This document shows, one piece after another, positions 159 to 60,452 of a DNA stretch of 64,000 nt. The notes under the pieces were generated by a model that had not been told where the DNA came from, did no database searches, and was given only the letters and a program-made list of their open reading frames with translations. Every line of letters starts with the position of its first letter. Within the stretch, counting starts at the first letter, position 1. The stretch spans positions 2,179,654 through 2,243,653 of the forward strand of contig NZ_CP007201.1 of NCBI RefSeq assembly GCF_000568815.1, in the 5' to 3' direction. The position numbers and the translations under genes are program-made. The DNA is from Sulfurospirillum multivorans DSM 12446 (GTDB lineage Bacteria > Campylobacterota > Campylobacteria > Campylobacterales > Sulfurospirillaceae).

Positions 159-2346
159 CGCTGTAACTAAAGACCAATTTTTTAGACTTGTAATCGATCT
201 TGCACACACCACCATTTTTAAGCTTTCCAAAAAGAACCTCTTCAGAAAGAGGTGTTTTAATCTGCTCTTGAATCACCCGACGCATGACGCGAGCACCCAT
301 CTCTTTGCTGTAACCCTCCGTTGCGAGGTATTTTTTAGCTGCCATTGTGGCTTCGATCGCTACATTTTTATCTTTAAGCTGATCGGTGAGTTCGCTCAAA
401 AGCTTCTCAACCACATTGATCATCACCGTCTCAGAGAGTGGCGCAAAATGAATCACCTCATCCAAGCGGTTTCTAAACTCTGGTGAGAAAAACTCCTTAA
501 TCGCATGATCCGTTCGTGAACTCTCACTCTTCGTAAAGCCCATCGTTGGCGCTTCTTTCGTTCCAAGATTGGAGGTCATAATGATAATGACATTGCGAAA
601 ATCGATCTTTGTGCCATTGTTATCGGTCAAGGTCGCACTGTCAAAAATCTGAAGCAAAATGTTCAGCATATCGGGATGCGCTTTTTCGATCTCATCTAAC
701 AGTAACACGGTATACGGGTGTTTTTTGATCGCTTCGCTGAGCTGTCCACCCTCATCGTAGCCTACATATCCCGGAGGTGCCCCGATGAGACGACTGACCG
801 TGTGCTTCTCCATGTATTCACTCATATCGTAACGTTCAAAATGCACACCCAGCTCATATGCAAGCTGTTTGGCCACTTCGGTTTTTCCCACACCCGTAGG
901 GCCTGCAAACAAGAAAGAGCCAATCGGTGAAGTTGGATGCCCAAGACCCGCACGGGAGCGTTTAATCGCTTTGGTAAGAGACTCAATCGCAGCGTCTTGT
1001 CCAAAAATCTTAGCCTTAAGATGCGTTTCTAAGTGTTGCATCACCACACCCTCGTCTTTATTCACACTGCGCGTTGGGATATTGGCAATCTTGGCAAGTA
1101 CGGCTTCAATGTCACTGAGCTCCACCACTTTTTTACGTTTTTTAGCCAAGTGAAACGAAGCGCCCACTTCATCGATCAGATCAATCGCAGAATCGGGTAA
1201 AAATTTATCACTGATGTATTTTTTAGCCAGTTCCACGGAAGCACGTATCACTTCTGTTGGATACTTCACGCCATGGTGTTGCTCGTAACTTCCCTTAAGC
1301 CCTTTAAGGATCAAAAAGGCGTCTTCAAGGCTTGGTTCTAAAACATCAATCTTGGCAAAACGACGGCTGAGCGCTTTGTCTTTATCGAAGAAATTGCGAA
1401 ACTCTCCATAGGTTGTAGCACCAATGCAGCGAATTTTTCCCGAAGCAAGGGCTGGTTTAAGCAGGTTGGAAAGATCCATTGAACCACCACTCGTGGCACC
1501 AGCTCCCACGATGGTATGAATCTCATCGATAAATAAAATAGCCCCTTTTTTGGCTTCGAGTTCGTTTAATATCTCTTTAAGACGTTTCTCAAAATCGCCT
1601 CGGTATTTGGTTCCTGAGAGAAGTGCTCCCATATCGAGGGCATAAACGGGAGTCTCTTTTAAGATTTCAGGCACAGCCCCTTCGCTGATCTTTTCAGCCA
1701 ACCCTTCAACAATGGCGGTTTTACCGACACCCGGTTCGCCCACAAGCAGAGGATTGTTCTTCTTTCTGCGACACAACACTTGCATGACGCGCTTCACTTC
1801 ATCGGCTCTGCCAATGAGAGGATCGATCTGTTTTTGCTTCGCAAGCGCAATCAAATCGAGCGTGTATTTTGCCAACGCACTCTCTTTTTGCTCGCCCAAA
1901 CTTAGCTCTTTATTTTGAGGTGCACTGAGCGCTGTCACCTCTTCAACGATCAAAAGTTTATCAACACCTTGTTGCAGTAAAAGCGAAACACAAAAGGCAT
2001 TGCCCTCATCCATCAGTGCGATTAAAAGGTCATACACACTCGCTTCTGACTTTCCTGCACTCTTTACATGTAACATCATCGTCTCAATCACACGTGAAAG
2101 AGCTACCGTTTCCAAAGGCTCATAACTCTCTTCAGTAGGTACGACTTGAGGATTGGCGACAAAGTATTTCTCCATTGAGCGTTGCAAGAGGGTAATGCTG
2201 AGTCCGCAATTAATGAGGAGTTCAGCCACATGTTCATTGCTTAAGAGCGCAAAAAAGAGATGATCGACGGTAATGTATTCGTAGCGATGTTTTCTTACAA
2301 ATGCGATGGCATCGTTGAAAACGAAATTGAGTTCTTGGTTCACCAT
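148..2346 (-). CDS. clpA: ATP-dependent Clp protease ATP-binding subunit ClpA
   Basis: AAA+ unfoldase that feeds substrates to ClpP and accepts N-degron substrates from ClpS. The 732-residue protein has the ClpA N-domain (about 1-140), a first AAA module with Walker A GEPGVGKT near residue 203 and Walker B LFIDEIHT, and a second module with Walker A GPTGVGKT near 485. A short MGF tripeptide in the second module sits where the ClpP-docking loop is expected. The length matches ClpA rather than the longer ClpB, and the coiled-coil M-domain of ClpB is absent. The start is supported by AAGGAG about seven bases upstream. It lies 53 bp downstream of clpS and overlaps aat. A TTTACATGTAA motif in the gene encodes LHVK near residue 92. 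Confidence 0.97.
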
Positions 2347-2399
2347 AATCTACTCCTTTTTACATTGTACACATTTACCTTGACGTAAGGTAGAAATTT

Positions 2400-2708
2400 T
2401 CACTCTGCTTCCATAATGGCACGAAGGGGAAATTGTTCCTCTTTTGCCATTTTACGTACATGCGCCACTTTAGTCTCAGCGATCTCATACACATACACTC
2501 CACAAAGCCCTTTGCCTTGCTCGTGAACATTAAACATGATTTCGTTTGCCTTTTCAAAACTATGATGGAAAATTTGCATCAGCACTTTAATGACAAACTC
2601 CATGCTACTATAATCGTCATTGAGTAGCAGAACTTTGTACATGCGTGGCTCTTTGAGCTCGATCGCATCCATTGTCTCGTTTTGAAAATCTCCATTAAAA
2701 TGGTGCAT
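2400..2708 (-). CDS. clpS: ClpA adaptor ClpS
   Basis: N-recognin that binds destabilising N-terminal residues and delivers those proteins to ClpA. The 102-residue protein shows the ClpS core: YKVLLLNDDYSSMEFVI, an FHHSFEKA segment corresponding to the F-x(3)-A region, and VHEQGKGLCGVY. The N-terminal extension before YKVLLLND is about 24 residues, as expected of the flexible arm that engages ClpA. A GAGGCG element precedes the ATG at 2708. It is encoded just upstream of clpA and downstream of a thioredoxin-like lipoprotein, suggesting one operon. Confidence 0.96.
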   Translation of the reverse strand: MHHFNGDFQNETMDAIELKEPRMYKVLLLNDDYSSMEFVIKVLMQIFHHSFEKANEIMFNVHEQGKGLCGVYVYEIAETKVAHVRKMAKEEQFPLRAIMEAE

Positions 2709-3841: not shown

Positions 3842-4625
3842 TTTTCACATCTGCCTTGTTTGATAATCTAAAAAAACTGCTTCCACTCCCGCTAAAAAAC
3901 CATCCCTCTTTCGCATAAACGCTCAGTTCGGGGTACGCTTTTAAGCATGCAGGGAAAAGATCGTTAAGCTCCTCTTTCTTAAAGTGAGCCAACAATTCAG
4001 AACTTTTCAGTGCAACCATATTCAAAGCAACGGCTTGATCCATGGATTGCAAGAAATATTCCCTATAGGTTTTATACACGAGCGCGGTATTGCACGCAAG
4101 GGGTGGTGTAAACACTTCAAGATTTAAAGCAGGCTCGTCATAGTGTTCAACGATTTCACCGATGCCGCTCACATTGGCACTCGTATACCCTGAGGCAAAA
4201 AAAGGAACGTCCGCACCCACTTCGCTTCCAAGACGCATCATCGCTTCAGTATCTAGCCCCAAACCCGCATGCTCATTGAGCATTTTTAAAAACGTTGCAC
4301 TGTCGCTACTGCCGCCACCAAGACCCGAGCCTGTGGGGATATTTTTCTTTACATGTAAAGCAAAATGACGCATCACCTGCTCAACTTCTTTGGTAAATCC
4401 GTGCGATTGGAGCACCTTAAACGTACGATAAAGCGTATTGTGCTCCAGCGCGCAGTTAAAATCGCCTCGTAACTCAAACAGTTCACCGCTCTTTTTAGGA
4501 ACAAAGGAGAGCGTATCGTACACAGAGGGAACGAGCATAAAGCGTGAGATCAATTCGTGGTAATGACCACGCTTGCCAACAATTTTGAGAAAGATATTGA
4601 CCTTTGCATGTGCTTGATAATCCAT
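3834..4625 (-). CDS. ispE: 4-diphosphocytidyl-2-C-methyl-D-erythritol kinase
   Basis: Phosphorylates CDP-methylerythritol in the non-mevalonate isoprenoid pathway. The 263-residue protein shows the GHMP kinase layout: N-terminal [16 protein letters not shown], the phosphate-binding loop [15 protein letters not shown] at about 94-108, and [10 protein letters not shown] with the catalytic Asp. The C-terminal FSGSGSSFF loop is also typical. It shares one base with the csrA stop (TAATG) and overlaps smpB. A perfect 14-bp CTTTACATGTAAAG (4347-4360) is read as LHVK in the region just before the glycine-rich loop. Confidence 0.96.
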
Positions 4626-5681: not shown

Positions 5682-7726
5682 TAAATCTTCTCCACAAAAG
5701 AGGCTAAAATATCCCGTTTGGTACCGCTAAAATTGATCTGCAATTTAAACTCACGCCCTACTTTGCTCACTTCCGTTATACGTCCAATGCCAAAGATCTT
5801 GTGCTTGACCAGATCGCCTTTTTTAAACGAGGTGGTTTTTTCTAAAATCAAACTTCCCTCGCACACGCCTGCTTCTTTGAGAAAACGGCTTTTGGTAAGC
5901 TCCGTTCTTCGCCCTTTGTAAAAACGACTGCCTGAAAAACTGAGTGTCAGCTCTTTTTTAGCACGTGTAATCGCCACATACCCAAGACGACGTTCTTCTT
6001 CAATGTCACTGCCGTCCCCTATGAGAGGGAAAAAGCCCTCTTCCAAACCAATGACAAAGAGGTATTCAAATTCCAAACCTTTGCTCGCATGAATGCTCAT
6101 AATGGAGATGTTTTCACTATCGATCTGATCTTGGTCGCTCTGCAATGCAAGCTCATTTAAAAAATCATCCACGCCCATTTGAGGGTTTTGCTTTACATAA
6201 TCACGGAAAAGTCCGTAAAATTCATCGATGTTGGAGAGGCGATCCAACGAGTCAGGCTGATTGGTGTAGTAAGCTTTGATCGCAAAAGATTCTTCAATGG
6301 CATCGATCATATCGTACGTTGAATTTTCTTGAATGCTCTGCATGTGTGCGATGTTTTGCACAAACTCTTTCAGCGCCAAAGAGGCCTTTTTCGTCGCCTC
6401 TTTTTCAATCGCAGCTTCGTTACATGTAATGTACTCATAAATCGATTGATGGTTATCGTAGGCTGATTTGATGATGCGCTCAATCGTCACTTTTCCAAGC
6501 CCACGTTTGGGACGATTGATAATGCGTTTGATCGAAAAATCATCATGAGGATTGGCAATGACGCGCAGGTAACTGATGACATCTTTGACCTCAGCACGCT
6601 CGTAAAACTTCACACCACCGACCATATTGTAAGGAATTTTCTCTTTATTGAGCCCCTCTTCTAATGAACGGCTGAGCGCATTGATGCGGTATAAAACAGC
6701 GATTTCATGAGGGTTGACACCACTTTCAATGAGCTTTCGAATCCGCTTTGCAATCGTATGCGCTTCTTGATTTTCGTCGTGTGAATCCAACACATCAATC
6801 GCTTTGCCATCACCCTTCGTACTCTCAAGTACTTTGCCAATGCGTCCACGGTTATGCTCGATAAGATCGTTTGCTGCTTTAAGAATTTGGGTTGTGGATC
6901 GGTAATTTTTCTCTAACTTAACGATTTTAACATTGTCAAACGACTCGTGAAACTCTAAAATATTTTTGATATTCGCCCCACGCCAACCGTAAATACTCTG
7001 GTCATCATCGCCCACAACACAGAGATTGTTGTGCGTAAAACAGAGTTTGCGAAGCAGTTTGTATTGTAGTTCATTTGTATCTTGGTACTCATCGACCATA
7101 ATGTACTGATAGCGCTTGCTCACCTCTTCACACAAAGCATCATCACCCTCTAAAATTTTATAAGGAAGGACTAAAAGGTCATCAAAATCAACCAAATTGT
7201 TGGATTGTAAGTAGTCTTCGTACTGCTCGTAAAGCTTGGCAATCACTTGATAACTCTTCTGCTCCGCTTTTTCCCACGCCACTTTTGGGTCAATTAAGGA
7301 GGTTTTATAGCGTGAAATCTCGCTGGCGATCATGCCCGTTGAAAGTTCTGTGCTCGTACTAAAACTTTTTAAGATGCGCTTTTTATCATCGGTATCGATG
7401 ACCACAAAGCTGTTCTTTCGCCCTATTTTTTCAATGTGAAACTTTAAAAAAAGCAGACCAAATTTATGAAAGGTACACAAGAGTGGCGGATAGCTGTGCT
7501 CTTCGATCATCGCCATCGCACGTTCTCGCATCTCACTGGCGGCTTTGTTGGTAAAGGTAAGCGTTAAGGTGTTCGCAGGAGGAATTCCTAAAGAGAGCAG
7601 GTACGCCAAGCGTGACGTAATCGTCTTGGTTTTACCACTGCCTGCACCTGCTAAGATAAGGACAGGACCATCGACACATTTGACTGCATCTTGTTGTGAT
7701 TCGTTTAACATCGCTAAATCTTGCAT
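5681..7726 (-). CDS. uvrD: UvrD/PcrA/Rep-type ATP-dependent DNA helicase
   Basis: Superfamily 1A 3'-5' helicase, probably for repair and replication restart. The 681-residue protein has motif I AGAGSGKT (about 29-36), DEYQDTN, GDDDQSIYGWRG, NYRSTTQIL, SIHASKGLEFEYLF and GYVAITRAKKEL in order. The C-terminal KKGDLVKHKIFGIGRI segment resembles the PcrA/UvrD C-terminal Tudor-like domain that binds RNA polymerase. Which of UvrD, PcrA or Rep is the closest functional equivalent cannot be settled by eye; the C-terminal domain favours PcrA/UvrD. It is first gene of the truB-csrA-ispE-smpB block and has its own promoter at 7762-7767. Confidence 0.94.
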   Translation of the reverse strand: MQDLAMLNESQQDAVKCVDGPVLILAGAGSGKTKTITSRLAYLLSLGIPPANTLTLTFTNKAASEMRERAMAMIEEHSYPPLLCTFHKFGLLFLKFHIEKIGRKNSFVVIDTDDKKRILKSFSTSTELSTGMIASEISRYKTSLIDPKVAWEKAEQKSYQVIAKLYEQYEDYLQSNNLVDFDDLLVLPYKILEGDDALCEEVSKRYQYIMVDEYQDTNELQYKLLRKLCFTHNNLCVVGDDDQSIYGWRGANIKNILEFHESFDNVKIVKLEKNYRSTTQILKAANDLIEHNRGRIGKVLESTKGDGKAIDVLDSHDENQEAHTIAKRIRKLIESGVNPHEIAVLYRINALSRSLEEGLNKEKIPYNMVGGVKFYERAEVKDVISYLRVIANPHDDFSIKRIINRPKRGLGKVTIERIIKSAYDNHQSIYEYITCNEAAIEKEATKKASLALKEFVQNIAHMQSIQENSTYDMIDAIEESFAIKAYYTNQPDSLDRLSNIDEFYGLFRDYVKQNPQMGVDDFLNELALQSDQDQIDSENISIMSIHASKGLEFEYLFVIGLEEGFFPLIGDGSDIEEERRLGYVAITRAKKELTLSFSGSRFYKGRRTELTKSRFLKEAGVCEGSLILEKTTSFKKGDLVKHKIFGIGRITEVSKVGREFKLQINFSGTKRDILASFVEKI

Positions 7727-11008: not shown

Positions 11009-11602
11009 TCAATCCTTAATAGATACTTTTTTAATTATTCTAAACCCTATAAGTGCATTCATTATAGCAAATTTCTCTGCTTTTTGAAGGCTTTTGATGT
11101 CTAAAACTTCAGCCTTCAATTCGCCGCAAGAGAGCAGTCGTGCGCGCGTGGTTCCCTCCAAAAGTGGATGAAGGGGTGTTTTCCACTCCCCATCGATGAA
11201 AAGCGCGATATTGGCAATGCTCGTGTCTTTGAGCTCACCTTTACATGTAAAGAGAATATCATCAACATCCTCGCGCAGATGGGCATTCAATGCTTCTCGG
11301 TTGCAATACTTATACGCGTAGTCTATGTCCGCTTCTACGAGTGAAAATGTGTGGAAGTCACGCGGTGTGTAGGGAAGATACTCAATCTTTTGAACTGTTT
11401 GGGCATATTCGACGCGCACTTTACATGTAAACGTTTTGGGTGGATTTAAATGCTCTAAAAGTGCGATTTTCTGCGTTGATCCATAAAGCTCTTGGCGCGT
11501 TTTATCAAAGCGTGCTTGATGAAACGAAAGATGCTGTACTTCGCCATTGACCGCTTTGAGCGTTTCAAAACACGGGGATATAGACTTTATCACACAGCTC
11601 AT
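11009..11602 (-). CDS. pabC: Class IV aminotransferase, probable aminodeoxychorismate lyase
   Basis: PLP enzyme expected to split 4-amino-4-deoxychorismate to p-aminobenzoate for folate. The start at 11602 (MSCVIKSIS) places [10 protein letters not shown] at the N-terminus, as in class IV enzymes; LKDTSIANIALFIDG and PLLEGTTRARLL match the C-terminal cofactor-site region. It is about 197 residues, shorter than stand-alone PabC (about 270) and closer to the compact C-terminal half of fused PabB-PabC proteins. It overlaps pabB by 38 bp, so the pair may be a split version of such a fusion. Two TTTACATGTAAA copies are read as FTCK. Confidence 0.82.
   Translation of the reverse strand: MSCVIKSISPCFETLKAVNGEVQHLSFHQARFDKTRQELYGSTQKIALLEHLNPPKTFTCKVRVEYAQTVQKIEYLPYTPRDFHTFSLVEADIDYAYKYCNREALNAHLREDVDDILFTCKGELKDTSIANIALFIDGEWKTPLHPLLEGTTRARLLSCGELKAEVLDIKSLQKAEKFAIMNALIGFRIIKKVSIKD
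11061..11066 (-). promoter_or_regulatory. Predicted -10 for pepF inside pabC
   Basis: Minus-strand AAATTTGCTATAATGAATG gives an extended -10 (TGCTATAAT) about 56 bases before the pepF start at 11005, within the 3' end of pabC. It could uncouple pepF from the folate/pyrimidine genes. Confidence 0.5.
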
Positions 11603-12527
11603 CGTACTCCTTTTGGGCATCGCTTAAAAGCGTGATACCTCCACCACTTTTAAACACACAACCCTCTTTTGTCTTTTCCAAAAAACGGATCATTACGGCA
11701 CTGTCCAAACTTTTCCCATCGTACACACCAAAAATACCCGTAAAATAGCCTCGATCATACCCTTCAAGACGTTCTATGATCTCCACACTGCTCCGCTTTG
11801 GCGTACCGCTAATAGAGCCTGCTGGAAGCAGTTTGGCTATGATGGTGCCTACGTTTTCATGCCAATTCTCATCCAATTTTCCCGTGATTTTGGAGCTTAC
11901 ATGTAAAAGCTCTTTGGTGCCTGCTTGAATCGTTTCGACATAGCGAAACTGCTCAACACGCACTTCACGCGAGACCATCGAGAGGTCATTACGCAAAAGA
12001 TCCACGACCATCACATGCTCCGCTTTTTCTTTCTCATCGTTTAAAATCATTTCTTCCGCATTGGGAATGCTCGCATCAATGGTGCCTTTCATCGGATAGG
12101 TGCTGATCTGATTGTTTTTGAGTTGCACAAAACGCTCAGGCGAAAAGCAGACAAAGTGCTCGTGATAGCACAGTTTAAACGGAGCATTGGCGGTATAAAA
12201 AAGAGTTTCAAGGGAGCCTGAAAACTCAACGTTGGTCGGTGCTGTAAGGTTAAGCAGATAGGTGTTGCCCGCTTTGATTGCTTCAATAACCGCGTCACAT
12301 TGAGCGAAATAGTGCTCTTTGGAAGGAGGCGTTTTACTCCACGAAACATCTTTACATGTAAACGCTTTAGAAGCGTTACTTTGGCTCTCTAACTGGTACA
12401 AAATGCCGCTTGGAACGGCATCGAGGGCGAATACCTCAAACTGTTTTGCTGCATAATCAATCACAAAGAAAAAAGGCGTTCGCGCTTTGCCAAACGCATT
12501 GAGTTTAGAGGCAAACTCAATGTTCAA
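11565..12527 (-). CDS. pabB: Aminodeoxychorismate synthase component I
   Basis: Chorismate-binding enzyme making 4-amino-4-deoxychorismate with a glutamine amidotransferase partner (PabA), which is not in this window. The 320-residue protein lacks the N-terminal domain of the long PabB/TrpE forms but keeps the catalytic core: [30 protein letters not shown] and [13 protein letters not shown], then [16 protein letters not shown]. The compact length is seen in Campylobacterota PabB. It overlaps pyrB by 11 bp at the start and pabC by 38 bp at the end. Confidence 0.92.
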
Positions 12528-14018: not shown

Positions 14019-14654
14019 ACTCTTCAAAATTTCATCCATATCGTCTTGGACTGAGAGCACTCTGCCAAACACTTTTTTGAAAAATGGCAGGGTGGTTTCA
14101 TCAAAAGAGGCACGATCTCCTTTAAAATTAACACACCACTCATAATCATCCACACCTAAACCATCCAGAAGATGAAGGTTGAGCAAAATATCGTTGATAC
14201 AGCCGAGTTGATCGTGCCCAACGAGCAGTGTTTTGGCATTAAAGAGTCGAATAAAATCGTACATGTAAAGATCTTCTTCAATGGGCACTAAAAGCCCGCC
14301 CGCCCCTTCAATCAAGACAATATCGCACAGCGCTTCGATCTTGGCATACGCACTCTCTAACAATTCCAAACTCACTTTTTTACGTCCTTTCGCCACAAAG
14401 GGAGCCGCAGGGAGTTCAAACTGATAGGGAACAATGTCACGAAGTTTTAACGCTTCAAGAGCCGGATGGTACCGTTTTGCCGTTTCAAAAAGCAGTGTGG
14501 CATCCACAGGATGTGTCACAACACCCGTTTCAATCGGCTTCATAACGCCGACTTTGAGCCCTTTGGCACTCAGCGCTTCTAAAAGTTTTAAGGTTGTGTA
14601 GGTTTTACCAACATCGGTGTTCGTGGCAGTAATAAAAATGGGGGGATATTTCAT
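13980..14654 (-). CDS. bioD: ATP-dependent dethiobiotin synthetase BioD
   Basis: Forms the ureido ring of dethiobiotin from DAPA, CO2 and ATP. The 224-residue protein has the P-loop TATNTDVGKTYTT (about 8-20), the substrate motif KPIETG and EGAGGLLVPI. It stands alone here; a BioF-type gene is 21 kb away and no bioA/bioB appears, so the pathway is scattered. The 3' end overlaps the convergent glycine-zipper gene by 39 bp. Confidence 0.94.
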   Translation of the reverse strand: MKYPPIFITATNTDVGKTYTTLKLLEALSAKGLKVGVMKPIETGVVTHPVDATLLFETAKRYHPALEALKLRDIVPYQFELPAAPFVAKGRKKVSLELLESAYAKIEALCDIVLIEGAGGLLVPIEEDLYMYDFIRLFNAKTLLVGHDQLGCINDILLNLHLLDGLGVDDYEWCVNFKGDRASFDETTLPFFKKVFGRVLSVQDDMDEILKSLVRYHNVQADKL

Positions 14655-15248: not shown

Positions 15249-16112
15249 CTACTTAAATCGTACGGGCACACAAAAATCCAGATCAAACAGCTCATCAGCC
15301 TCGATAAAATGGTTTTTACGGTACAAGGCAAACGAAGGAAGTGCCGCCTTTTCGTATACACTTTTAGGCAACCACTCATGGTAAATCACATCCATATATT
15401 TTTTCAAATCACCGTATTTTCCTTGTAGTGAGAAGAGTGCACAAAACGTTTGAGGAATGCGCATCACGCCCACTTCACCGCTTCGGTAAAATTTCTTTTC
15501 AGAGGGAAGCTCTAAACAGGCGACATAATGGCACTGGGATGATTCCACAAAGCGAGGATTGCTGTGGTGCAGACCGATCATCTTTTGCTGTGCAAAATCA
15601 ATGCCTTCGTGAAGCGCCCATGCTTGAAGCTTCAACCATGCCATCTTAATGCTACGATCATACCCTTTGTGCCGCACATATGCCACATCAAAACTGGGCA
15701 TCGAGCCAATCTTTACATGTAAAGGGGTATTCGCAAACGTATAGTCCCTGTTTTCATTGGCACGATCGACTTCGCGCCACTTGGTTGGGGTCACACCAAA
15801 GTTCTCTTTAAAGGCTTGTGAGAAAGAGGCGTTGGAGCTAAAACCCACCTCATGCATAATGTGCGTGATCGTCGCATCGGGGTTAAACAGCAGTAAATTA
15901 GCAGCATGTTCAAGCTTAACGCGCTTAATGTACGCATGTACACTCTCTTTCGTTTGCTCTTTGAAAATGCGGTTAAAATGAAACGGTGACATTGCAACCA
16001 ATGAAGAGAGCTCTTCAACACTAAAGTTTTTTCCAATAGCACCATGAATGTAAAAAAGAACCTCATTGACACGCTCAATATGATCATTTTTCGTGTTTAT
16101 TTTGTGTTTCAT
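15249..16112 (-). CDS. AraC-family regulator with GyrI-like effector domain
   Basis: The N-terminal half (about 10-112) holds two AraC helix-turn-helix motifs, FSVEELSSLVAMSPFHFNRIFK and ITHIMHEVGFSSNASFSQAFKENFGVTP; the C-terminal half (about 128-287) resembles the GyrI/SbmC small-molecule-binding fold. This pairing is seen in multidrug-sensing regulators of the Rob type. The start at 16112 is preferred: the predicted -10 lies at 16119-16124, so any earlier start would be upstream of the transcript. That makes the mRNA nearly leaderless. It is divergent from the aminotransferase at 16214, which it may regulate. A perfect CTTTACATGTAAAG at 15711-15724 encodes LHVK. Confidence 0.88.
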   Translation of the reverse strand: MKHKINTKNDHIERVNEVLFYIHGAIGKNFSVEELSSLVAMSPFHFNRIFKEQTKESVHAYIKRVKLEHAANLLLFNPDATITHIMHEVGFSSNASFSQAFKENFGVTPTKWREVDRANENRDYTFANTPLHVKIGSMPSFDVAYVRHKGYDRSIKMAWLKLQAWALHEGIDFAQQKMIGLHHSNPRFVESSQCHYVACLELPSEKKFYRSGEVGVMRIPQTFCALFSLQGKYGDLKKYMDVIYHEWLPKSVYEKAALPSFALYRKNHFIEADELFDLDFCVPVRFK

Positions 16113-18304: not shown

Positions 18305-19164
18305 GTTATCCCACGTTTACAGATAATATTACCAAGCTGTGCTCCCACTGCACAGGCTACCACATCGCATTTCACTTTAAAAAGAAAGAAAATCGGAAGC
18401 CCATTGGTTTCACTCAAGCATTCGTAATTTCCCATCCCTTTAGCAATGATGCACTCCGCTTTTTCAAAAATTACACGCGCCTCTTCATTCATGAGCTCCA
18501 ACACAAGCCCAGGAGTTGGAACGCCACTATCCACAATCATTGCGATTTCATTCATACCAGAAGCAAGTGCGTCTTTACATGTAAGATCATTGATGATCGG
18601 TCGTCCACGCACAAAATAGTAGACTTCAATGGTTGGATAGAGTTTTTTGATGGTTTGAATGTAGAGTTTATCGAAGATCTCTTCGCCCGCATTATCGGCT
18701 AAATAGACCAGTGTTTGTGTGTTTTTCAGTTGCGCTTCAAGCATTTTAAAATCATCAATCGCAAAGGGTGTATGGTAAATCTTCTCCAACTCCTCTTCAA
18801 GATCGTACAACATCACCGCCGCAAGATCGATCACATTGCCCGCTACGGCTGTTTTGGTCGCTTCAAAAAGGGTGTTAGCACTCGCATTTATTTTTGCTTC
18901 GCACAAGGGAAGAAAAGCTTTGGCTTTTTCTGAAGATGATTTTTTAAAATCCGCATAGAGATCATCGACGTTTAAAAGTTCTGCCATCGCTTCGTACAAA
19001 GGAGCCACATTAACGGGAGGATTTTGATTCATATCGAAATTTTTGATCTGCTGATGCGCAAGGGCATCAATAGCAGCAGATTGTTCATCGTTTACATGTA
19101 AAAGTTCACACACGCGTTTGGTCTGGTCATAAATACAGGTTAAACAACGTTCTTGAATTTTCAT
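18301..19164 (-). CDS. DUF89/ARMT1-like metal-dependent phosphatase
   Basis: Member of the DUF89 damage-control phosphatase family, thought to hydrolyse harmful phosphometabolites. The start at 19164 gives 287 residues beginning MKIQERCLTC, preserving an N-terminal CxxC; upstream in-frame codons look non-coding. Family signatures present: AGNVIDLA (about 107), LADNAGE with the metal-site Asp and Asn, YYFVRGRPIIND, and KGMGNYECL near the C-terminus. The physiological substrate is unknown. Two TACATGTA motifs are read as LTCK and LHVN. Confidence 0.85.
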   Translation of the reverse strand: MKIQERCLTCIYDQTKRVCELLHVNDEQSAAIDALAHQQIKNFDMNQNPPVNVAPLYEAMAELLNVDDLYADFKKSSSEKAKAFLPLCEAKINASANTLFEATKTAVAGNVIDLAAVMLYDLEEELEKIYHTPFAIDDFKMLEAQLKNTQTLVYLADNAGEEIFDKLYIQTIKKLYPTIEVYYFVRGRPIINDLTCKDALASGMNEIAMIVDSGVPTPGLVLELMNEEARVIFEKAECIIAKGMGNYECLSETNGLPIFFLFKVKCDVVACAVGAQLGNIICKRGIT

Positions 19165-27121: not shown

Positions 27122-27157
27122 TATTTCTTCCCTTCTTCATTTTATTACATGTAAAGA

Positions 27158-37510: not shown

Positions 37511-40057
37511 TTAGCCTTGAAGAATGGATTTTGCATACGCGAGGGCTGCTGATTTTGCCTCTTCGATTTTAGAAGCATCTTTCCCCCCTGCTTGCGCAAA
37601 GTCATCTCGCCCTCCTCCACCGCCACCAACGATCGGCGCGATCTCTTTAATCCACGCACCTGCTTTAATCGCGGCATTTTTAACACCTGCAGCGATCATC
37701 ACTTTGTCGTCTTTAACTTGCAGTAAAAGCACTGCAACGGAGTTTTTCTCATTTTTAAGATCATCAATGCGCGCTTTAATATCGCCAGCACCCAATACAT
37801 CCACAATGAGTTCAACGCCGTTTACATGTAAAGATTCTACAGACTTTCCAGCGTGAGCATTTAAAGATTCAACTTCAGTTTTTAGGGTTTTAATCTCTTC
37901 TTTCAGACGATTGATGCCGATGAGTGGCTCTTTATGTTTCACACTCTCTTTAATCGCTTCAAGATCGCTTCTTAAACTTTGCGCATAAGAAAGTGCCGCA
38001 CTTCCGCAAATCGCTTCGATACGTCTGACACCCGCACTCACACCGCTCTCTTTTTGAATAAAGAAGCTTCCGATATTGGCAGTGTTCTCAACATGCGTTC
38101 CACCGCACAGCTCAACACTCGCATCACCAAAACTGACCACACGCACTTCTGAGCCGTATTTTTCGCCAAAAAGCGCCATAGCGCCACTGTTTTTAGCCTC
38201 TTCGACATTCATCAGTTTTGTCTCTCCCGAAACACCACTCGCGATGACACTGTTCACAAACGCTTCAACCTTAGCGATCTCTTCAAAACTGAGTGCTTTT
38301 GGATGTGAGAAGTCAAAACGAAGTCTGTCTTTTTCGACCAAACTACCCGCTTGAGAAACATGCTCACCCAAGACTTTACGAAGTGCGCTGTGTAGCAAGT
38401 GTGTTGCACTGTGATGTCTTTCGATCTCAAGGCGTGAGACATCCACACTGAGGCTTACCTCATCGTTTACATGTAAAGGTTTTTCAAGCTCAACAAGGGA
38501 AAGATTAAGGTCAAAAAATTTCTTCGTATCGAGCACTTTTCCATAGCCTTCAATGACACCCTCATCGCCACTTTGTCCACCGCTCATCGCGTAAAATGGG
38601 GTTTGTTCAAACATCACCCAACCGTTTTCGTCTAAACTTTGAACCTCTTTGAAGTTTTCATCTAAGAGTGCTAAGACTTTGGTTTTGGCCTCTTTTTGCA
38701 TGTAACCAACAAAAGTATTGAGACCAAATTTTTCAAGGAGCGGTTTAAACTCACCTTGGGTTGCTTTGTCACCACTTCCTTTCCATGAGGCTTTAGAACG
38801 CGCTTTTTGCTCCGCCATCAAAGCTTCAAACTCCGCTTCATTGACACTAAGCCCTTTTTCACGAAGCATATCTGCTGTCAAATCAAGAGGGAAGCCATAG
38901 GTGTCATAGAGTTTAAACGCAACTTCACCGCTGAACATCGTTTTGGTATTGGGGAGTTCTTTTTCAAAGAGTTCCAGTCCTGAAGCGATAGTCGTAAAGA
39001 AGCTCTCTTCTTCATTTTTAATCTGCTCAGCGATGACCTCTTTTTTAGCAACAAGGTACGGGTACTGTTTGCCCATAAGCGCACATAAGGTATCAAGAAG
39101 TTTGTACATAAACGGCTCACGAAGACCCAACAAATAACCATGTCTGACTGCACGTCTTAGGATGCGTCTTAGCACATACCCACGTCCTACACGACCAAAG
39201 GTTGTGCCTTGGGCTACAAGAAAAGAGACAGCGCGAATGTGATCGGCGATAACACGGTAACTTGCTCCCGTTTTATACGCATACGGTTTTCCGCACAGCT
39301 CAGCGACTTTGTCCGTTAATGGGATAAAGAGTGAAGAGTCATAATTGCTGAAAACGCCTTCTTGCACCGCTGTGACACGCTCTAAACCCATACCCGTGTC
39401 GATAGAAGGTTTAGGAAGCGGATGAAGCACACCTGAAGAGTCGCGCTCGTACTGCATAAACACAAGATTCCAAATCTCTAAGAAACGATCACCATCGCCG
39501 CCCATATAATCCTCAGGCGTGTTGAAGTTTTCAGCCCCTTGATCGATGAAGATTTCGCTGCACGGACCGCATGGTCCCGTATCGCCCATTTGCCAGAAGT
39601 TGTCTTTATCACCAAAGCGCATAATGCGACTCGCGTCGATGTGTTTTTTCCAAATCGCTTCTGCCTCATCATCGCTCTCATGAACGGTCACCCAGAGTTT
39701 GTCTTTGGGAAGTTTTAAAACGTCTGTGACAAACTCCCACGCATGAGAGATGGCATCTTCTTTAAAATAATCGCCAAAAGAGAAGTTTCCAAGCATTTCA
39801 AAAAAAGTATGATGGCGCGCTGTGTAGCCGACGTTATCAAGGTCATTGTGTTTTCCACCTGCACGGATGCACGTTTGACAGGTTGTCGCACGCGGAGGGT
39901 TTGGGCGAGGCACTTCGCCTGTGAAAACACTCTTAAAAGGAACCATGCCTGCGTTGGTAAACAGAAGCGTCGCGTCATCGGGCACAAGGGGAGAACTCTC
40001 GATAATCTTGTGACCTTTTTGTTCAAAAAACTTTAAAAACTCAGCTCTAACATCCAT
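37511..40057 (-). CDS. alaS: Alanyl-tRNA synthetase
   Basis: Class II synthetase of 848 residues. The catalytic N-terminal domain includes [30 protein letters not shown] and [11 protein letters not shown]; the editing domain has the zinc-binding [13 protein letters not shown] and [13 protein letters not shown] (Cys near 650); the C-terminal part ends with [15 protein letters not shown] (about 818), the DHHA1-type motif. It is somewhat short for E. coli AlaS (876) but standard for the class. Two TTTACATGTAAA motifs encode LHVN. Confidence 0.97.
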
Positions 40058-40153: not shown

Positions 40154-42106
40154 CTACAACGTACACTTTTCACTCAGACGATACCCCACAATCCACCAAC
40201 CCAAAACGACAATGATGGCACCTAAAAAGCCATTAAACGTCAGAAGGCAGAAAAGACCCATAACAATGGCGATCATACCCAAGATATAGCTTCCTGAGAA
40301 CACGCTAAAGATGGCAATGACAATGCCTGAAAGCCCTACGTAATTGAGGTAAATCACCTTGCCTAAAAGCGTTCTAAATTGACAGATAGGAAGCATCGGT
40401 TCAGCCGCGCACACAGCCACCCACGACTCTTTGACATAGACACCCTCTTTCATTGCCACAATGGCAAGAGCGGCTACGACTAAAATCAAAAGTGTTCTAA
40501 AAAGACCGCACAATTTAGAGGTGGAAAGCCACAATGTTGAGCCCAAAACCATCACTAAAATGACCCAATTCAGCGCAAAATCATTGCGTGCACTCTCTTG
40601 AACTAAAACCGCTAAGGCACTTAAAAACAAGATCAACCCGCTCGCTTTTTCCATCAAACCATTAAGCTCTTTACGCTCGGTTGAAAAATAAATCACCGCA
40701 TACACCACCGCAATGATGCCAAGCGTTCCTAGCTCAAAGTTCAGATAGCGTCCATCAAACGCTAAAGAGAGCGCCATCACAAGCACGATGCTGATGCTAC
40801 ACAGATGCAAAACATCTTCCCAAAAGGTCTCGCCTTTGGGTTCACTGAGCGTTATAACGCTCATGAAACGCGCCATCGAACCTCGCATCGTGATCTCTTC
40901 AGCAATGAGAAAGCGCACCAGTTTAAGCCACAGTAAAAAAGCGACACAGAGGCATAAAATCGCCCACGCCTCTTCCAAATTATTGCGCGAAACGATCCAA
41001 TACGCATTGGCTTGCCACGTAAGCGCCACCGAACCACCAAAGAGCGTTGCAAACCAGTACGGCGCTTTTTTGCACGAACATGTCGGCACGCCCCAAAGCC
41101 AAATCAAACCAACCAGACTGAGCGCACAACTGCTGATAAAAAGCCACAGCGCATTGGGAAAGTTGGAGACAAAACCATGCAAGATGTGTTTATCCGCCCT
41201 ATCGGCATCAAACAGACCCCAAAAACCGCCCACAGCACCTTCACTCATGCGCTTCCACGGTTGGTCAAACGCTTCGATGAAGTTGTACTGCCAGCCACTC
41301 TCTTCCGCCATTTTGACAAACCCACGCGTGAAGAGAGCTTGGTTGACCGCACTGGGGTAGGCAGATTCACGCATACGTCCTTCACTTGGCCAGCCTGTCT
41401 CACCGATGACGATCTCTTTATCGGGAATTTTTTGTTGCATCAACTCACGAATATTCTTTACATGTAAAAGCGCTTTGTCCACGCTGATGGGTGTATCTTC
41501 CCAGTACGGCAAGATGTGAATCGTCACGCGATCGACCGCAGGTGCGACCTCGGGGTGCTTATTCCAAAACTCCCACACATCGGCATACGTGATGACCATA
41601 TCGGGCAATGCTTGTTTCACTTCGTTTATGTAGCCGACCAATTGTGCGGCACTCACATCACGTCGCAACAACGCTTCATTGCCCACGACAACGGTTTCGA
41701 CAATGTCTTTGTTCTCTTTAGCCAAACGAATCGTTGTGTCGATCTCTTTTTTCGTCAACGCCACATCACTGCTTACCCATGCACCCAGCCACAGTTTCAG
41801 CCCATGTTTACGCGCAATCTCGGGTAACTCTTCAAGCCCCACGCTTGAGTAAGAACGAATACAACTCGTAATCGTCGCCAAATGCGCCAAATCTTTGTCC
41901 ATCTGCTCGGTCGAAGGACGAAACCCTTTAGGAATATCCATCGGCGATTCATTTTTGCCAAAAGGGGCATACGAAAGGCATTGTAGTTTGACATTGGGAT
42001 CAAGCGTTATGAGGCTCGAAGAAGGCAAAGCCATCCAAAACCAAAAAAGCCCCAATGTGGCAAACATCGCAAGGTAAAAAAGGATCATTTTAAACGTGTG
42101 ATTCAT
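40154..42106 (-). CDS. Membrane-anchored GH17-family glycosidase or transglycosylase
   Basis: The start at 42106 is chosen because GGAG lies nine bases upstream inside the longer reading; it gives 650 residues. After an N-terminal membrane helix (about 6-28) comes a glycoside hydrolase family 17 domain (about 45-300): VVVGNEALLRRD holds the acid/base Glu and VIGETGWPSEG the nucleophile Glu, as in beta-1,3-glucanases. The C-terminal half (about 310-650) has roughly ten membrane helices and no GT2 glycosyltransferase motifs. Bacterial GH17 membrane proteins have been linked to cyclic or branched beta-glucans, but substrate here is unknown. It stands alone between alaS and the two-component genes. 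The 96-bp gap to alaS and the 237-bp gap to the response regulator hold no recognisable gene. Confidence 0.82.
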   Translation of the reverse strand: MNHTFKMILFYLAMFATLGLFWFWMALPSSSLITLDPNVKLQCLSYAPFGKNESPMDIPKGFRPSTEQMDKDLAHLATITSCIRSYSSVGLEELPEIARKHGLKLWLGAWVSSDVALTKKEIDTTIRLAKENKDIVETVVVGNEALLRRDVSAAQLVGYINEVKQALPDMVITYADVWEFWNKHPEVAPAVDRVTIHILPYWEDTPISVDKALLHVKNIRELMQQKIPDKEIVIGETGWPSEGRMRESAYPSAVNQALFTRGFVKMAEESGWQYNFIEAFDQPWKRMSEGAVGGFWGLFDADRADKHILHGFVSNFPNALWLFISSCALSLVGLIWLWGVPTCSCKKAPYWFATLFGGSVALTWQANAYWIVSRNNLEEAWAILCLCVAFLLWLKLVRFLIAEEITMRGSMARFMSVITLSEPKGETFWEDVLHLCSISIVLVMALSLAFDGRYLNFELGTLGIIAVVYAVIYFSTERKELNGLMEKASGLILFLSALAVLVQESARNDFALNWVILVMVLGSTLWLSTSKLCGLFRTLLILVVAALAIVAMKEGVYVKESWVAVCAAEPMLPICQFRTLLGKVIYLNYVGLSGIVIAIFSVFSGSYILGMIAIVMGLFCLLTFNGFLGAIIVVLGWWIVGYRLSEKCTL

Positions 42107-42358
42107 ACAGTCGCGCTCCATACATCGTTAATAGTTGCGCGATTATACAGGAAATGCGATTAAGGGGTTACATGTAAAAAGTAGAAATTGTATTCATAAA
42201 GATGCATCAACACCTATAAGCAATAAATTGAGAGTTATAAAAGCATTAGCTTTTAATTATGTACAAGCAGAATCCATTTCTTGAGCACAATTTTAATTTT
42301 AATAAAAAGAAGTTTTAGAAAACTATTATCAGTTGAGAAACCTTTTATTGTAGTAACA

Positions 42359-50563: not shown

Positions 50564-50626
50564 CTGCTTTTTAAAGGACACTCTGTTTGATTTCATGCTA
50601 CACTCTTACATGTAAAAGGAGCGAGC

Positions 50627-51412: not shown

Positions 51413-52348
51413 ATGCAAAAAGCGCTTGTCCTACTCAATATGGGAGGACCCAATAACCTTGATGAAGTCAAAGTTTTTTTATCCAATATGTTCAATGACG
51501 CCAATATCATCACCGTAAAGAGCGCTCTTTTACGCCGTTTTATCGCTTTTATGATCACCTCAACACGTACCAAAAAAGCCCAAGCCAACTACGCCAAACT
51601 CGGAGGCAAATCGCCTTTAGTCGGCTACACCAAACACCTGGTAGCAAAGCTACAAAGCGCACTTCCAGCTTTACATGTAAACTTTGCGATGCGCTACACG
51701 CCTCCCTTTTGTGATGCGTTGATTGAGGAGCTCAAAGCCAAGGGAATTGAAGAGGTTATCTTGTTGCCACTGTATCCGCACTACTCGACCACGACGACCA
51801 AGTCTTCGGTGGAAGATTTTATGAAAGTGGCGAAAGCATTGGACTTTAAAGCGCGTATTCGCGTGATTGATCGTTTTTTTGAGAACGAAAGATATAACCG
51901 CCTTTTGGTGAAAAAGATCAAAGAAGCGTTAGGAGCGAATGATCCAACGCAGATGGAGCTCATCTTCTCCGCGCACTCTCTGCCTCAAGAGATCATCGCG
52001 AATGGCGATCCGTATCAGAGAGAAATAACGTTACATGTAAAGCTTGTTGAACAACTTTTACACGAAGAAGGTGTGCAGTTTAAAGAGGTACATTTAGCCT
52101 ATCAGTCGAAGCTTGGACCGGTTAAATGGCTTGAGCCTTCGATGGAGGAAAAACTCTCAACGCTTGAAAATAAAAATGCGCTCATTGTTCCGATCTCGTT
52201 TACGATTGATAATTCTGAAACAGAGTTTGAACTCAGTATGGAGTATGCCGAGCTTGCGCACCGACTTGGATTTGAACGCTATATCGTGGCAAAATGCCCC
52301 AATGATGATGAGGCGTTTGTGGAGTGCATTAAAGGCTTAATTGACTAA
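51413..52348 (+). CDS. hemH: Ferrochelatase
   Basis: Inserts iron into protoporphyrin IX in the last step of haem synthesis. The 311-residue protein has LLNMGGPNNLDEV at the N-terminus, the catalytic His in FSAHSLPQEII (about 186), YQSKLGPVKWLEP, and the acidic ETEFEL segment with FTIDNSETEFEL near 262. Length is standard. The stop overlaps the convergent ftsI gene by 4 bp. Two motif copies encode LHVN and LHVK. Confidence 0.96.
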   Translation: MQKALVLLNMGGPNNLDEVKVFLSNMFNDANIITVKSALLRRFIAFMITSTRTKKAQANYAKLGGKSPLVGYTKHLVAKLQSALPALHVNFAMRYTPPFCDALIEELKAKGIEEVILLPLYPHYSTTTTKSSVEDFMKVAKALDFKARIRVIDRFFENERYNRLLVKKIKEALGANDPTQMELIFSAHSLPQEIIANGDPYQREITLHVKLVEQLLHEEGVQFKEVHLAYQSKLGPVKWLEPSMEEKLSTLENKNALIVPISFTIDNSETEFELSMEYAELAHRLGFERYIVAKCPNDDEAFVECIKGLID

Positions 52349-56664: not shown

Positions 56665-57698
56665 TCGCAATAACGGGTGGAGGCACAGGTGGGCATTTGG
56701 TTATTGCGCGTGCGATTAAAGAAGAGCTCAACAGACGTGGTATTAAGCCTATTTACATTGGCTCCACAGCAGGACAAGATAAAGCATGGTTTGAACACGA
56801 TGCTGGTTTTGAAAAAACCTACTTTCTTGAGAGTCAAGGCGTTGTCAATAAAAAAGGGGTTCGTAAGCTCCTTGTTCTCTTCTGCATTCTTCGTTCCGCC
56901 TTTACATGTAAAACACTTTTTAAAAAACATCAAATTGATGCTCTCTTTTCTGTAGGTGGCTATTCAGCGGCTCCTGCATCCTTTGGTGCACTCCTATGCG
57001 GTATCCCTTTGTACATTCATGAACAAAATGCCATTCAAGGGAAACTCAATTCGCTCCTACGTCCGTTTTGCAAAGCTTTTTTTAGCTCGTACGATCCAAA
57101 GGCGATACATACGAGTTATCCTGTAAGTGAAGCCTTCTTTACGATTCAAAGAGAACGCACAACGCTTAAAACAATAATCTTTTTGGGTGGAAGCCAAGGT
57201 GCTTCGTTTATCAATGCTCTTGCGCAAAAAATGGCACCCTTGTTCCACCAAGAGGGTATTGCGATTATTCACCAAACAGGGCAAAAAGAGTTTGAAGCGA
57301 TGAAAGCATTTTACGTTCATGCAGGCATACCTGCGGATGTGTTCGATTTTTCCAAAGAGATCCCTGCAAAACTAGCTTTGGCAGATTTTGCCATTAGTCG
57401 CTCAGGTGCAAGTACCCTCTGGGAGCTTTGCGCAGCAGGTGTGCCTGCTCTGTTTATTCCCTTGCCTCATGCAGCCGCCAATCATCAGTATTTTAACGCT
57501 AAAGCACTCGCCGATCAAAACGTAGCGCTCATCCTTTCACAAAGCAGTGCCTTTGAGCCAAAAGCACTGTTAGAACAAATCCAACAGCTTGATCTGCTCA
57601 GCACGTCACAGCGCTTAATGCAGATGATTCAAAAAGGTGGCGCAAAAGAAATTGTTGATGTGATGTTACAAACCCAAAAAAAGGAGAAACCATGCTAG
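56661..57698 (+). CDS. murG: UDP-N-acetylglucosamine--N-acetylmuramyl transferase MurG
   Basis: GT-B enzyme making lipid II from lipid I on the inner membrane. The 345-residue protein begins MIAITGGGTGGHLVIARAIK with the two glycine loops, HEQNAIQGKLN (about 117), LGGSQGASFIN (about 176) and FAISRSGASTLWELCAAGVPAL (about 244). Coupled to ftsW by a 4-bp overlap and to the acetyltransferase by 7 bp. A TTTACATGTAAA encodes FTCK near residue 83. Confidence 0.96.
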   Translation: MIAITGGGTGGHLVIARAIKEELNRRGIKPIYIGSTAGQDKAWFEHDAGFEKTYFLESQGVVNKKGVRKLLVLFCILRSAFTCKTLFKKHQIDALFSVGGYSAAPASFGALLCGIPLYIHEQNAIQGKLNSLLRPFCKAFFSSYDPKAIHTSYPVSEAFFTIQRERTTLKTIIFLGGSQGASFINALAQKMAPLFHQEGIAIIHQTGQKEFEAMKAFYVHAGIPADVFDFSKEIPAKLALADFAISRSGASTLWELCAAGVPALFIPLPHAAANHQYFNAKALADQNVALILSQSSAFEPKALLEQIQQLDLLSTSQRLMQMIQKGGAKEIVDVMLQTQKKEKPC

Positions 57699-59180: not shown

Positions 59181-59565
59181 ACTCTTGCGCGTATACTATA
59201 TCGAGCAGCTCTATAAAACTTGCAGGATCACTGTAGCCTGCAAATTCATCGATGATGCTAAGATCACGGGGCGATAAAATCAAATTAGTAGGAAAATACT
59301 TTACATGTAACGCTTGTGGCAATGTAGGATCTTCTCCATTAATGCTTACATGTAAATAGTTTTTAGCAATGCGCTGATTAAATTTTGGTACATCAAAAAT
59401 ATCTTTTTGCATCTTAATGCAATACGGACATCCCTCTTTTTCAATACTTAAAAGAATGAGTTTATTTTCCCTCAGTGCTTTTTGGCGCTCTATTCCCAAA
59501 AATTCGGCTTTTAAAGAAAGAACACTTAGCATAACCATCATTAATATTTGAAACCATTTTTTCAT
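59173..59565 (-). CDS. Periplasmic thioredoxin-like protein (SoxW/DUF255-like)
   Basis: 130 residues: signal peptide (about 1-19, MVMLSVLSLKA), then a thioredoxin fold with the redox motif GCPYCIKM (about 45-52) and a cis-Pro in KYFPTNLIL (about 92). CPYC and the size match the SoxW-type thioredoxin_2 group. Its role, e.g. in thiol handling or haem biogenesis, is not deducible. It shares 4 bp with the transporter gene. Two TTACATGTAA copies encode LHVS and LHVK only 45 bp apart. Confidence 0.83.
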   Translation of the reverse strand: MKKWFQILMMVMLSVLSLKAEFLGIERQKALRENKLILLSIEKEGCPYCIKMQKDIFDVPKFNQRIAKNYLHVSINGEDPTLPQALHVKYFPTNLILSPRDLSIIDEFAGYSDPASFIELLDIVYAQEFK

Positions 59566-60452
59566 CTATGAATCACTCTCTTTCTTTGTTGGATCAATAA
59601 GCCCATTATAATAAAAATCAACCCAATAAAGGTAGAAAAGAGAATAGTTTCGCCTACAAAAAAAGAGATAAACAATAGAGACAAAAAAGGAGAGATAAAA
59701 ATAAGATTTGCAATTTTTGCAGTGTTTGTGCTTAGTTTCATCGCTTGTAACCACAAAATAAAGGTAATGCCCATTTCAAAAACTCCTATGTACATTGAAC
59801 CAAGAAAACCATAAAGATTAAATGTTAGAGGATGCGACGTTACAAGAGCATAGAGTAAAATAGCAGGAACGCCAAAGAGAAAATTGATAAAAAGACCAAC
59901 CAGTGGGTCTACATGTAATTTAGTATTGTAAAGCCAATAGAGTGACCATAACACCGTCGAAAATAGCGCTAGAAAGACACCTGTGGGGCTTGTGAACGAG
60001 AAATTCCAAAGATCACCATGTGTCGAGATGACTAAAACGCCACAGTAACACATAAGCCCTGCTAGAAAATCATAGAGACTCAATTTTTGTTTTAAGATAA
60101 ACACAGATAGATACGTCAATGTCAATGCCCATGTGTAATTAATAGGCTGTGCCTCTTGGGCAGGCAAAAGCTCATAGGCGCGAAAAAGGATTAGATAGTA
60201 TATAAATGGATTGATTAGGCCCAACAATGCAAGTTGTAAATAGGTTTTTTTTGAATAGATTAAAAGTGTGTCAAATTTTTTTTGATAGCACATAGCAGTA
60301 AAAAAGACGCATAATGAAAAAAATGAAGCATAAAGAAGAAGTTGCAACGCATCAAAATAGGCTAATGTAAGTTTAAAAGCACTTGCAACCGTTGACCAAA
60401 GTAAAACAGCACTAATGGCAAATAAATAAGATTTTGATTGATTTTTTTCCAA
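59562..60452 (-). CDS. EamA/DMT-superfamily transporter
   Basis: 296 residues with ten predicted membrane helices in two homologous EamA halves (about 8-140 and 150-290). PAQEAQPINYTWAL in the first half is the segment typical of drug/metabolite exporters. The substrate is unknown; RhtA/RarD-like metabolite efflux is possible. The last gene before the rRNA operon; 54 bp separate it from the 5S end. Confidence 0.85.
   Translation of the reverse strand: MEKNQSKSYLFAISAVLLWSTVASAFKLTLAYFDALQLLLYASFFSLCVFFTAMCYQKKFDTLLIYSKKTYLQLALLGLINPFIYYLILFRAYELLPAQEAQPINYTWALTLTYLSVFILKQKLSLYDFLAGLMCYCGVLVISTHGDLWNFSFTSPTGVFLALFSTVLWSLYWLYNTKLHVDPLVGLFINFLFGVPAILLYALVTSHPLTFNLYGFLGSMYIGVFEMGITFILWLQAMKLSTNTAKIANLIFISPFLSLLFISFFVGETILFSTFIGLIFIIMGLLIQQRKRVIHR

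Follow-up and report, generated by a model that had tools for sequence, protein, structure and literature searches.

The stretch analysed here, called the window, comprises 64,000 nucleotides of Sulfurospirillum multivorans DSM 12446 (contig NZ_CP007201.1, positions 2,179,654 to 2,243,653). Throughout its genes, which include clpA, alaS and open reading frames (ORFs) resembling a UvrD/PcrA helicase, pabB and TrhP, and also between them, a short palindrome is repeated, TACATGTA, mostly within the ten-base form TTACATGTAA. ORFs were called mechanically at a length of at least 100 amino acids (aa), and genes below 100 aa therefore count as outside. The matches to TACATGTA in the window, with strand given as '.', are the following.

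2065..2072, strand., palindrome site inside the clpA ORF 148-2346(-)
4350..4357, strand., palindrome site in ORF 3834-4625(-)
6421..6428, strand., palindrome site in the UvrD/PcrA-like helicase ORF 5681-7726(-)
11242..11249, strand., palindrome site in ORF 11009-11620(-)
11422..11429, strand., palindrome site in ORF 11009-11620(-)
11898..11905, strand., palindrome site in the pabB-like ORF 11565-12527(-)
12353..12360, strand., palindrome site in the pabB-like ORF 11565-12527(-)
14260..14267, strand., palindrome site in ORF 13980-14654(-)
15714..15721, strand., palindrome site in ORF 15249-16130(-)
18576..18583, strand., palindrome site in ORF 18301-19236(-)
19093..19100, strand., palindrome site in ORF 18301-19236(-)
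21371..21378, strand., palindrome site outside ORFs, forming a pair with the one 12 bp further on
21383..21390, strand., palindrome site outside ORFs, the other member of that pair, just past the end of ORF 21409-22749(-)
23763..23770, strand., palindrome site in ORF 23653-24804(-)
25845..25852, strand., palindrome site in ORF 25545-26264(-)
27146..27153, strand., palindrome site outside ORFs of at least 100 aa
28378..28385, strand., palindrome site in the TrhP-like ORF 28156-29421(-)
30438..30445, strand., palindrome site in ORF 30251-31030(+)
35348..35355, strand., palindrome site in ORF 34668-35390(-), kept in most relatives compared
37164..37171, strand., palindrome site in ORF 37010-37507(-)
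37823..37830, strand., palindrome site in the alaS ORF 37511-40057(-), kept in most relatives compared
38468..38475, strand., palindrome site in the alaS ORF 37511-40057(-), kept in most relatives compared
41459..41466, strand., palindrome site in ORF 40154-42121(-), kept in most relatives compared
42169..42176, strand., palindrome site outside ORFs of at least 100 aa
49133..49140, strand., palindrome site in ORF 48171-49238(+)
50607..50614, strand., palindrome site outside ORFs of at least 100 aa
51347..51354, strand., palindrome site outside ORFs of at least 100 aa
51672..51679, strand., palindrome site in ORF 51413-52348(+)
52032..52039, strand., palindrome site in ORF 51413-52348(+)
56903..56910, strand., palindrome site in ORF 56661-57698(+)
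59302..59309, strand., palindrome site in ORF 59173-59565(-)
59347..59354, strand., palindrome site in ORF 59173-59565(-), with the site at 59302..59309 lying 45 bp away
59910..59917, strand., palindrome site in ORF 59562-60452(-)

Together the paired sites make up a single perfect palindrome of 28 bp (21367-21394), and a similar pair was seen at L006 7662/7674. The count of exactly 33 agrees with the first-pass annotation, which had reported by eye at least 33 cores where base composition predicted one or two; dinucleotide shuffles of the window gave a mean of 0.50 and a maximum of 3. It had placed the copies between 2073 and 59917, and the last copy does end there while the first already lies at 2065-2072. 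TTACATGTAA accounts for 30 of the 33 sites, no other palindromic word being enriched to a similar degree. The enrichment is not limited to the window, one of the objections foreseen, since the whole S. multivorans genome (3,175,729 bp, one contig) contains 1,724 copies of TACATGTA versus 45 of the reversed pattern used as control, and 1,484 of TTACATGTAA versus 2. Nor is it explained by a third-order Markov model, the other objection: in a 464-kb sample made of the window and 20 spread 20-kb stretches of the genome, 254 copies of TACATGTA and 221 of TTACATGTAA stand far above the 5.3 and 0.64 expected, and the next-best-scoring palindromic 8-mer was found 21 times for 10.5 expected. In the same sample ATGCAT occurs at about one quarter of the third-order expectation, and CAATTG, GATATC and GGCGCC are also under-represented, as restriction avoidance would give.

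The unit is an 8-10-mer with weaker flanks CTT...AAG. TTACATGTAA has G/C at 2 of its 10 positions, i.e. it is AT-rich, and the folded consensus of 251 of the 254 sites (three are too close to a stretch end) is CTTTACATGTAAAG. In the 464 kb, words deviating from the 10-mer by one inner base added up to 20 versus 16.8 expected (observed/expected, O/E, 0-3.9) and variants of the outermost base (T) reached O/E of 5, 10 and 33, so deviations are tolerated at the outermost base only. ACATGT outside the 8-mer is not enriched in S. multivorans (78 versus 121 expected under a first-order model). No covariation between both flanks was found across the 251 sites, indicating that each half-site is read independently, which fits a dimer, unlike a hairpin, and speaks against a function as a hairpin or otherwise at the RNA level.

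Sites occur about once per 1.8-2.1 kb with exponential spacing (coefficient of variation 1.01) and a short-distance excess, 14 gaps of 8-50 bp having been found for 6 expected. Contrary to the first impression they are not indifferent to genes, because 78 of 254 lie outside ORFs versus 30 expected. Their wide spread, unconserved outer flanks and site-by-site conservation uphold the early view that an operator, a terminator or a mobile repeat is unlikely. Inside genes the frame reading TAC ATG TAA is nearly avoided (10 of 176 sites). In frame 1 the sense-strand base 5' of TACATGTA is T in 110 of 111 sites and never C; TTA and CTA both encode Leu, so the outer-edge T is held even where the change would be synonymous. 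The last base is G instead of A at 18 of the 176 in-gene sites, 16 of them in the frame where that base is first in the codon after GTA and 2 in the other main frame, which we read as a coding constraint, though U-G pairing would also permit G. Six stretches at 0.96-1.78 Mb contain 50 sites in 120 kb and the remainder 204 in 344 kb, i.e. sites are fewer there but present. Five intergenic sites (L004:19703, L007:3062, L010:6120, L013:13223 and L016:4214) are located at the apex of longer inverted repeats resembling terminator hairpins.

A survey of 398 genomes of the order recovered TTACATGTAA in 24 of 24 genomes of the genus (49-1,496 copies, controls 0-10). Its presence was patchy in the other genera of the same family (6 to 733 copies), and in a second family with sites, f17, nine genomes had 19-367 copies and the others 0-11, as did all remaining genomes. 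Inside the genus G078 (49 copies), G330 (168) and G116 (238) are site-poor; the AlaS proteins of G078 and G116 are 95% identical to that of S. multivorans. In G149 (411 copies) the motif is broadened around ACATGT, which outside the 8-mer is 3.6-fold over expectation. Another genus of the same family includes one genome, G037, with a different word, TATCATGATA (166 copies versus 2), enriched there alone of the ten genomes of its genus and found in 43 other family genomes at 1-10 (33 genomes) or 11-39 (ten) copies; CATG is common to this word and TTACATGTAA. Two S. diekertiae plasmids have 14 and 13 sites versus 0.5 expected (~0.35 per kb), of which only 4 in each are TTACATGTAA. Searches of the open-access literature, including the palindrome strings and Sulfurospirillum uptake sequences, found among the papers listed no description of the palindrome in this group, consistent within that literature with what the first-pass annotation had stated.

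A viral contig of 11,868 bases, the provirus L170, contains seven copies of TACATGTA versus 0.46 expected and may have these sites in common with its host. Among at least 120 viral stretches, a biased sample since they were chosen for containing the 14-mer, 85 had one site, L170 7 and L123 6. The S. multivorans genome also contains a very long CRISPR-like array at L008:4586-14140 (C1 ~1,124,586-1,134,140), with 147 copies of a repeat that contains TGTGTCGGTTCGAG, the first copies being 66 bp apart.

The sites are selectively maintained at individual positions, with loss and consensus change by clade. In the alaS region they were 85-100% intact in 10 of 11 relatives with at least 605 sites each (75-83% identity) and 8 of 11 were intact in the eleventh, G276, versus 15-27% for random 8-mers in the same comparison. 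In this region three closer relatives kept 25 of 26 sites, and in four genomes from other genera 11 of 25 were retained (control 7-11%). The numbers kept there were 4/10 in G149, 3/8 in G231, 0/9 in G078, 1/8 in G116 and 1/4 in G330. With more of the genome aligned, 26 of 31 sites were intact in G193, where the products of codon conservation would leave 8% (TTA-CAT-GTA), 17% (CAT-GTA) or 24% (ACA-TGT). In the equivalent alignments G116 keeps 1 of 8 S. multivorans sites and G078 0 of 17, of which the 8-mer and codon controls would leave about 2-3 intact; loss in G078 may have been somewhat faster than neutral. A second G078 set, which includes positions where not every donor has the site, had 1 of 47 positions intact. 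Restriction at CATG does not account for this loss, as G078 shows no special avoidance of CATG (O/E 0.83 versus 0.80 in S. multivorans).

The sites are also phase-locked to the 11.25-bp AA/TT wave of the chromosome in Sulfurospirillum, mainly via third codon positions, and this is new. The AT content around 259 S. multivorans sites oscillates with a best period of 11.25 bp, with an amplitude of 0.061 at 12-75 bp (noise 0.005). The amplitude is 0.073 at 8-41 bp and declines in later 33-bp windows to 0.048, 0.033, 0.029, 0.016 and 0.009 (noise ~0.007), the phasing being detectable to ~150 bp from the dyad and lost in the noise at around 170 bp. At 248 sites the local phase was far from uniform (Rayleigh R=0.474, p about 6e-25). 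G193, which is another species, gave a similar result (R=0.466, n=214, p about 6e-21), as did four genomes from three other genera of the family (R=0.39, 44 sites, p=0.001). AA/TT are in phase with the sites and GC/CG/GG out of phase. The chromosome itself bears the wave, seen as an autocorrelation peak at 11.25 bp. By codon position the amplitude was 0.128 +- 0.009 at position 3 and 0.055 and 0.025 at positions 1 and 2, which makes a by-product of protein helices unlikely, and the 77 intergenic sites show the wave too.

None of 18 phase tests with control words (9 words in 2 genomes) reached p<0.05. The control amplitudes were 0.001 for CATG outside sites (n=1588), 0.002 for ACATGT outside sites (n=79), 0.007 for TTANNNNTAA (n=231) and 0.006 for TTTTAAAA (n=131), and TTTNNNNNNAAA (0.018, n=1007) and AAANNNNNNTTT (0.014, n=1002) gave a weak signal of opposite phase. 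Three rarer words were too noisy to judge, namely AAGCGCTT (n=39, 0.028, noise 0.012), TTGCGCAA (n=25, 0.021, noise 0.015) and TTAATTAA (n=10, 0.046, noise 0.024).

Retention site by site, independent half-sites, location on one face of curved DNA, a consensus differing between clades and the capacity of the system to disappear are together best explained by a homodimeric bending protein. We therefore tentatively favour, as a quite plausible reading, that TTTACATGTAAA is the binding site of a putative homodimer that recognises this sequence specifically, bends DNA and contributes to chromosome organisation. Protein binding, bending or pinning of the DNA and a benefit in chromosome organisation are the steps that we infer. 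The putative homodimer would bind ~1,500 sites in S. multivorans and read each half-site independently. Dyads tend to sit on the AT-rich face of the 11.25-bp AA/TT wave, so that a protein bound there would contact the inner side of DNA that is curved beforehand, and would fix in place a wrap or the apex of a loop formed by supercoiling. Periods above 10.5 bp have been related to plectonemic loops (PMC4132750), and it is such loops that the site-bound protein would presumably pin. The wave is weaker in pooled samples of the site-losing lineages (0.0027 +- 0.0003 versus 0.0044 +- 0.0003), which we count in favour of the bending protein. Among the roles listed at first pass a nucleoid or chromosome-organising protein gains the most from the helical phase-lock, although neither of the candidates ParB and HU tracks the sites.

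Several observations weigh against this reading. ParB was matched in 40 of 41 genomes, singly in 35 including G078 and G116, and HU in 36 of 36 (these and the other partner-protein searches covered chosen genomes out of the 398), and neither followed the sites. The spacing of the sites is random rather than regular, and the wave around them is only modestly above that at random positions (0.105 versus 0.092, noise included). No lock at 11.25 bp was found for the word of G037, ATCATGAT (n=41, R=0.11, p=0.63), despite a strong wave in that genome (0.0044), nor for 14 plasmid sites (p=0.24), and that of G149 was not significant (n=28, p=0.11; wave weak, 0.0015 +- 0.0007). In five pooled f17 genomes with 101 sites the lock is weaker and shifted in phase (R=0.26, phase 1.35); two of the five, G102 and G125, do not have the 11.25-bp wave. 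Finally, 47 lost-site positions in G078 are still in phase (R=0.387, p=9e-4), which indicates that the wave is not a product of the site alone; the amplitude at these positions was 0.035 +- 0.009 in G078, 0.045 +- 0.010 in G193 and, across five closer relatives with the sites retained, 0.078 +- 0.016. Extra ParB hits in G016, G020 (on a plasmid), G222, G330 and G348 are unrelated to site number, and a Noc-like second ParB was rejected, no ParB paralogue tracking the sites.

A wider possibility, which we regard as doubtful, is that of a bacterial positioning code in which a defined palindrome about every 2 kb would determine how the 11.25-bp curvature wave of the chromosome is phased rotationally, and the combination of the two would place a sequence-specific architectural protein or the apices of supercoiled loops. 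It would be a losable, word-changing system of a new kind.

The palindrome might instead be a DNA uptake signal, the competence machinery preferring DNA that carries it and biased transformation accumulating and restoring the sites, as for the uptake signal sequence (USS) of Haemophilus and the DNA uptake sequence (DUS) of Neisseria. These signals resemble the palindrome in density (here about one per 2 kb), intergenic excess, genome-wide enrichment, conservation at orthologous positions and clade-specific dialects, and the USS also has phased AT-rich flanks; furthermore ComEC is encoded by 42 of the 44 genomes searched for it, and all 34 searched for T2SSF have that gene. However, USS and DUS are asymmetric and the word here is an exact palindrome, its phasing extends ~150 bp, beyond the two turns known for the USS, and plasmids with 13 and 14 sites would be unusual for uptake signals. 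The lineages without most of the sites (G078, G116 and G330) keep both ComEC and T2SSF, the competence genes covered by the search, so that loss of competence as the cause of site loss was not seen for either. We know of no natural transformation in Sulfurospirillum and the open-access literature listings likewise contain none, which also counts against uptake, and altogether we hold this explanation to be rather unlikely.

Unlikely as well is a HIP1-like (highly iterated palindrome 1) by-product or partner of methylation, in which an orphan methyltransferase would mark the core and a methylation-dependent repair or reader would create or keep the sites. The enzyme concerned, A1, belongs to the D12 class (PF02086), genes of which were found in 27 of 32 genomes, and its family was traced with a profile from 18 aligned members; we presume it to be CATG-specific by analogy with the Helicobacter enzyme. 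The S. multivorans A1 is an orphan beside a gene resembling CheY by eye, and no restriction gene was recognised among the ORFs of the stretch around it, of which three proteins were scanned. In the genus, the median number of sites is 1127 (411-1,496) for the 17 genomes with A1 and 412 (49-934) for the 7 without, G078 included (Mann-Whitney p=0.0013, uncorrected for phylogeny), A1 being absent from the site-poor G116 and G330 and matched only distantly in G078. CATG is shared by the site and the G037 word, and two S. diekertiae plasmids with sites, of three Sulfurospirillum plasmid records with an A1 homologue, carry it too (in pieces in the pSDIE1 annotation). The deviations concentrate at the outermost bases, as they do in the HIP1 data presented by Elhai (PMC4390886).

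A1 is nevertheless neither necessary nor sufficient, only correlated with site number. G171 has 934 sites and kept 7 of 8 tested positions without it, and G125, G299, G091 and G231 have 194-567 sites, also without A1; some further site-bearing genomes yielded no A1 either, the methyltransferase families covered being D12 and N6_N4, and G257 (265 sites) has a distant match only. Conversely 174 of the 398 genomes match the A1 profile, many of them with 0-11 sites, and G149 with A1 and G231 without it kept sites alike in the alaS region. The N6_N4 methyltransferases (PF01555), in 13 of 32 genomes, showed no pattern. MutL (PF01119) was matched in 0 of 28 genomes of families f1 and f17 and in 11 of 14 control genomes, so that Elhai's mismatch-repair model for HIP1 is unlikely here. 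Of the methylation- or repair-linked role listed in the first-pass annotation there remains the partial correlation with A1, the repair-based version being contradicted. Besides, a methyltransferase gives no reason for a helical phase-lock across ~300 bp. In plasmid pSDCE1 four sites (L084:1918, 1957, 2423 and 2461) lie inside a 1.04-kb methyltransferase gene; as 12 chromosomal copies in the genus have 0 sites, there is no consistent pattern by which the gene would be the target of its own sites.

Very improbable is that the palindrome is the centre of a preferred binding and cleavage segment of the gyrase of this clade with the arms wrapped in phase: phased AT/GC arms around a dyad are found here as in the E. 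coli motif, described for a length of ~130 bp with phased G/C variation and the AT-rich minor groove facing the protein (PMC6379681), and cleavage specificity is reported to differ by species (PMC12324340), but the E. coli motif is degenerate compared with a 10-bp word enriched ~350-fold (221 versus 0.64) and the phasing here goes beyond +-65 bp. Gyrase is moreover an essential, conserved enzyme, whereas the sites have all but vanished from G078.

What HIP-type palindromes do and what the ~11-bp wave of bacterial genomes does are two open questions that the papers treat separately; in Sulfurospirillum the palindrome and the wave coincide. The palindrome is thus a handle on both questions, as a probe for the putative binding protein, and the natural losses in G078, G116 and G330 beside well-stocked relatives are material for comparative genomics, in a named genus that lends itself to tests of the factor behind site maintenance, of supercoiling and of how the chromosome folds.

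Compared with known systems, Noc, SlmA, MatP and ParB, as generally known, are similar in being dimeric proteins that act in chromosome organisation on palindromes of 13-20 bp. They differ in having tens of sites versus ~1,500 here, where sites are also present, at lower density, in the sampled mid-chromosome and no ParB paralogue tracks them. The resemblance to HIP1 pointed out at first pass is sound in appearance, density and position: both are short palindromic cores far above expectation along the chromosome, in hundreds to thousands of copies within and between genes, with clade-wise loss and replacement, the outer bases most variable and an orphan methyltransferase in many genomes, as far as HIP1 and the alternate HIPs of cyanobacteria are characterised in the relevant sections of Elhai 2015 (PMC4390886). 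The same sections give HIP1 as GC-rich and propose its creation by MutS/MutL mismatch repair, whereas the Sulfurospirillum word is AT-rich, its host belongs to Campylobacterota, the one methyltransferase family traced is not necessary and the absence of a MutL match from the 28 genomes searched contradicts the repair-based model. The 11.25-bp lock is a further difference, known for the Sulfurospirillum side alone. Related to that lock is the ~11-bp 'structural code' of bacterial genomes (PMC4132750, PMC7537859), where the parts dealing with sequence periodicity describe the same kind of WW/AA-TT wave, with preference for third codon positions and coherent over ~100 bp. In those parts the wave is diffuse and no discrete anchor is described, while in Sulfurospirillum a palindrome stands at a fixed phase of it.

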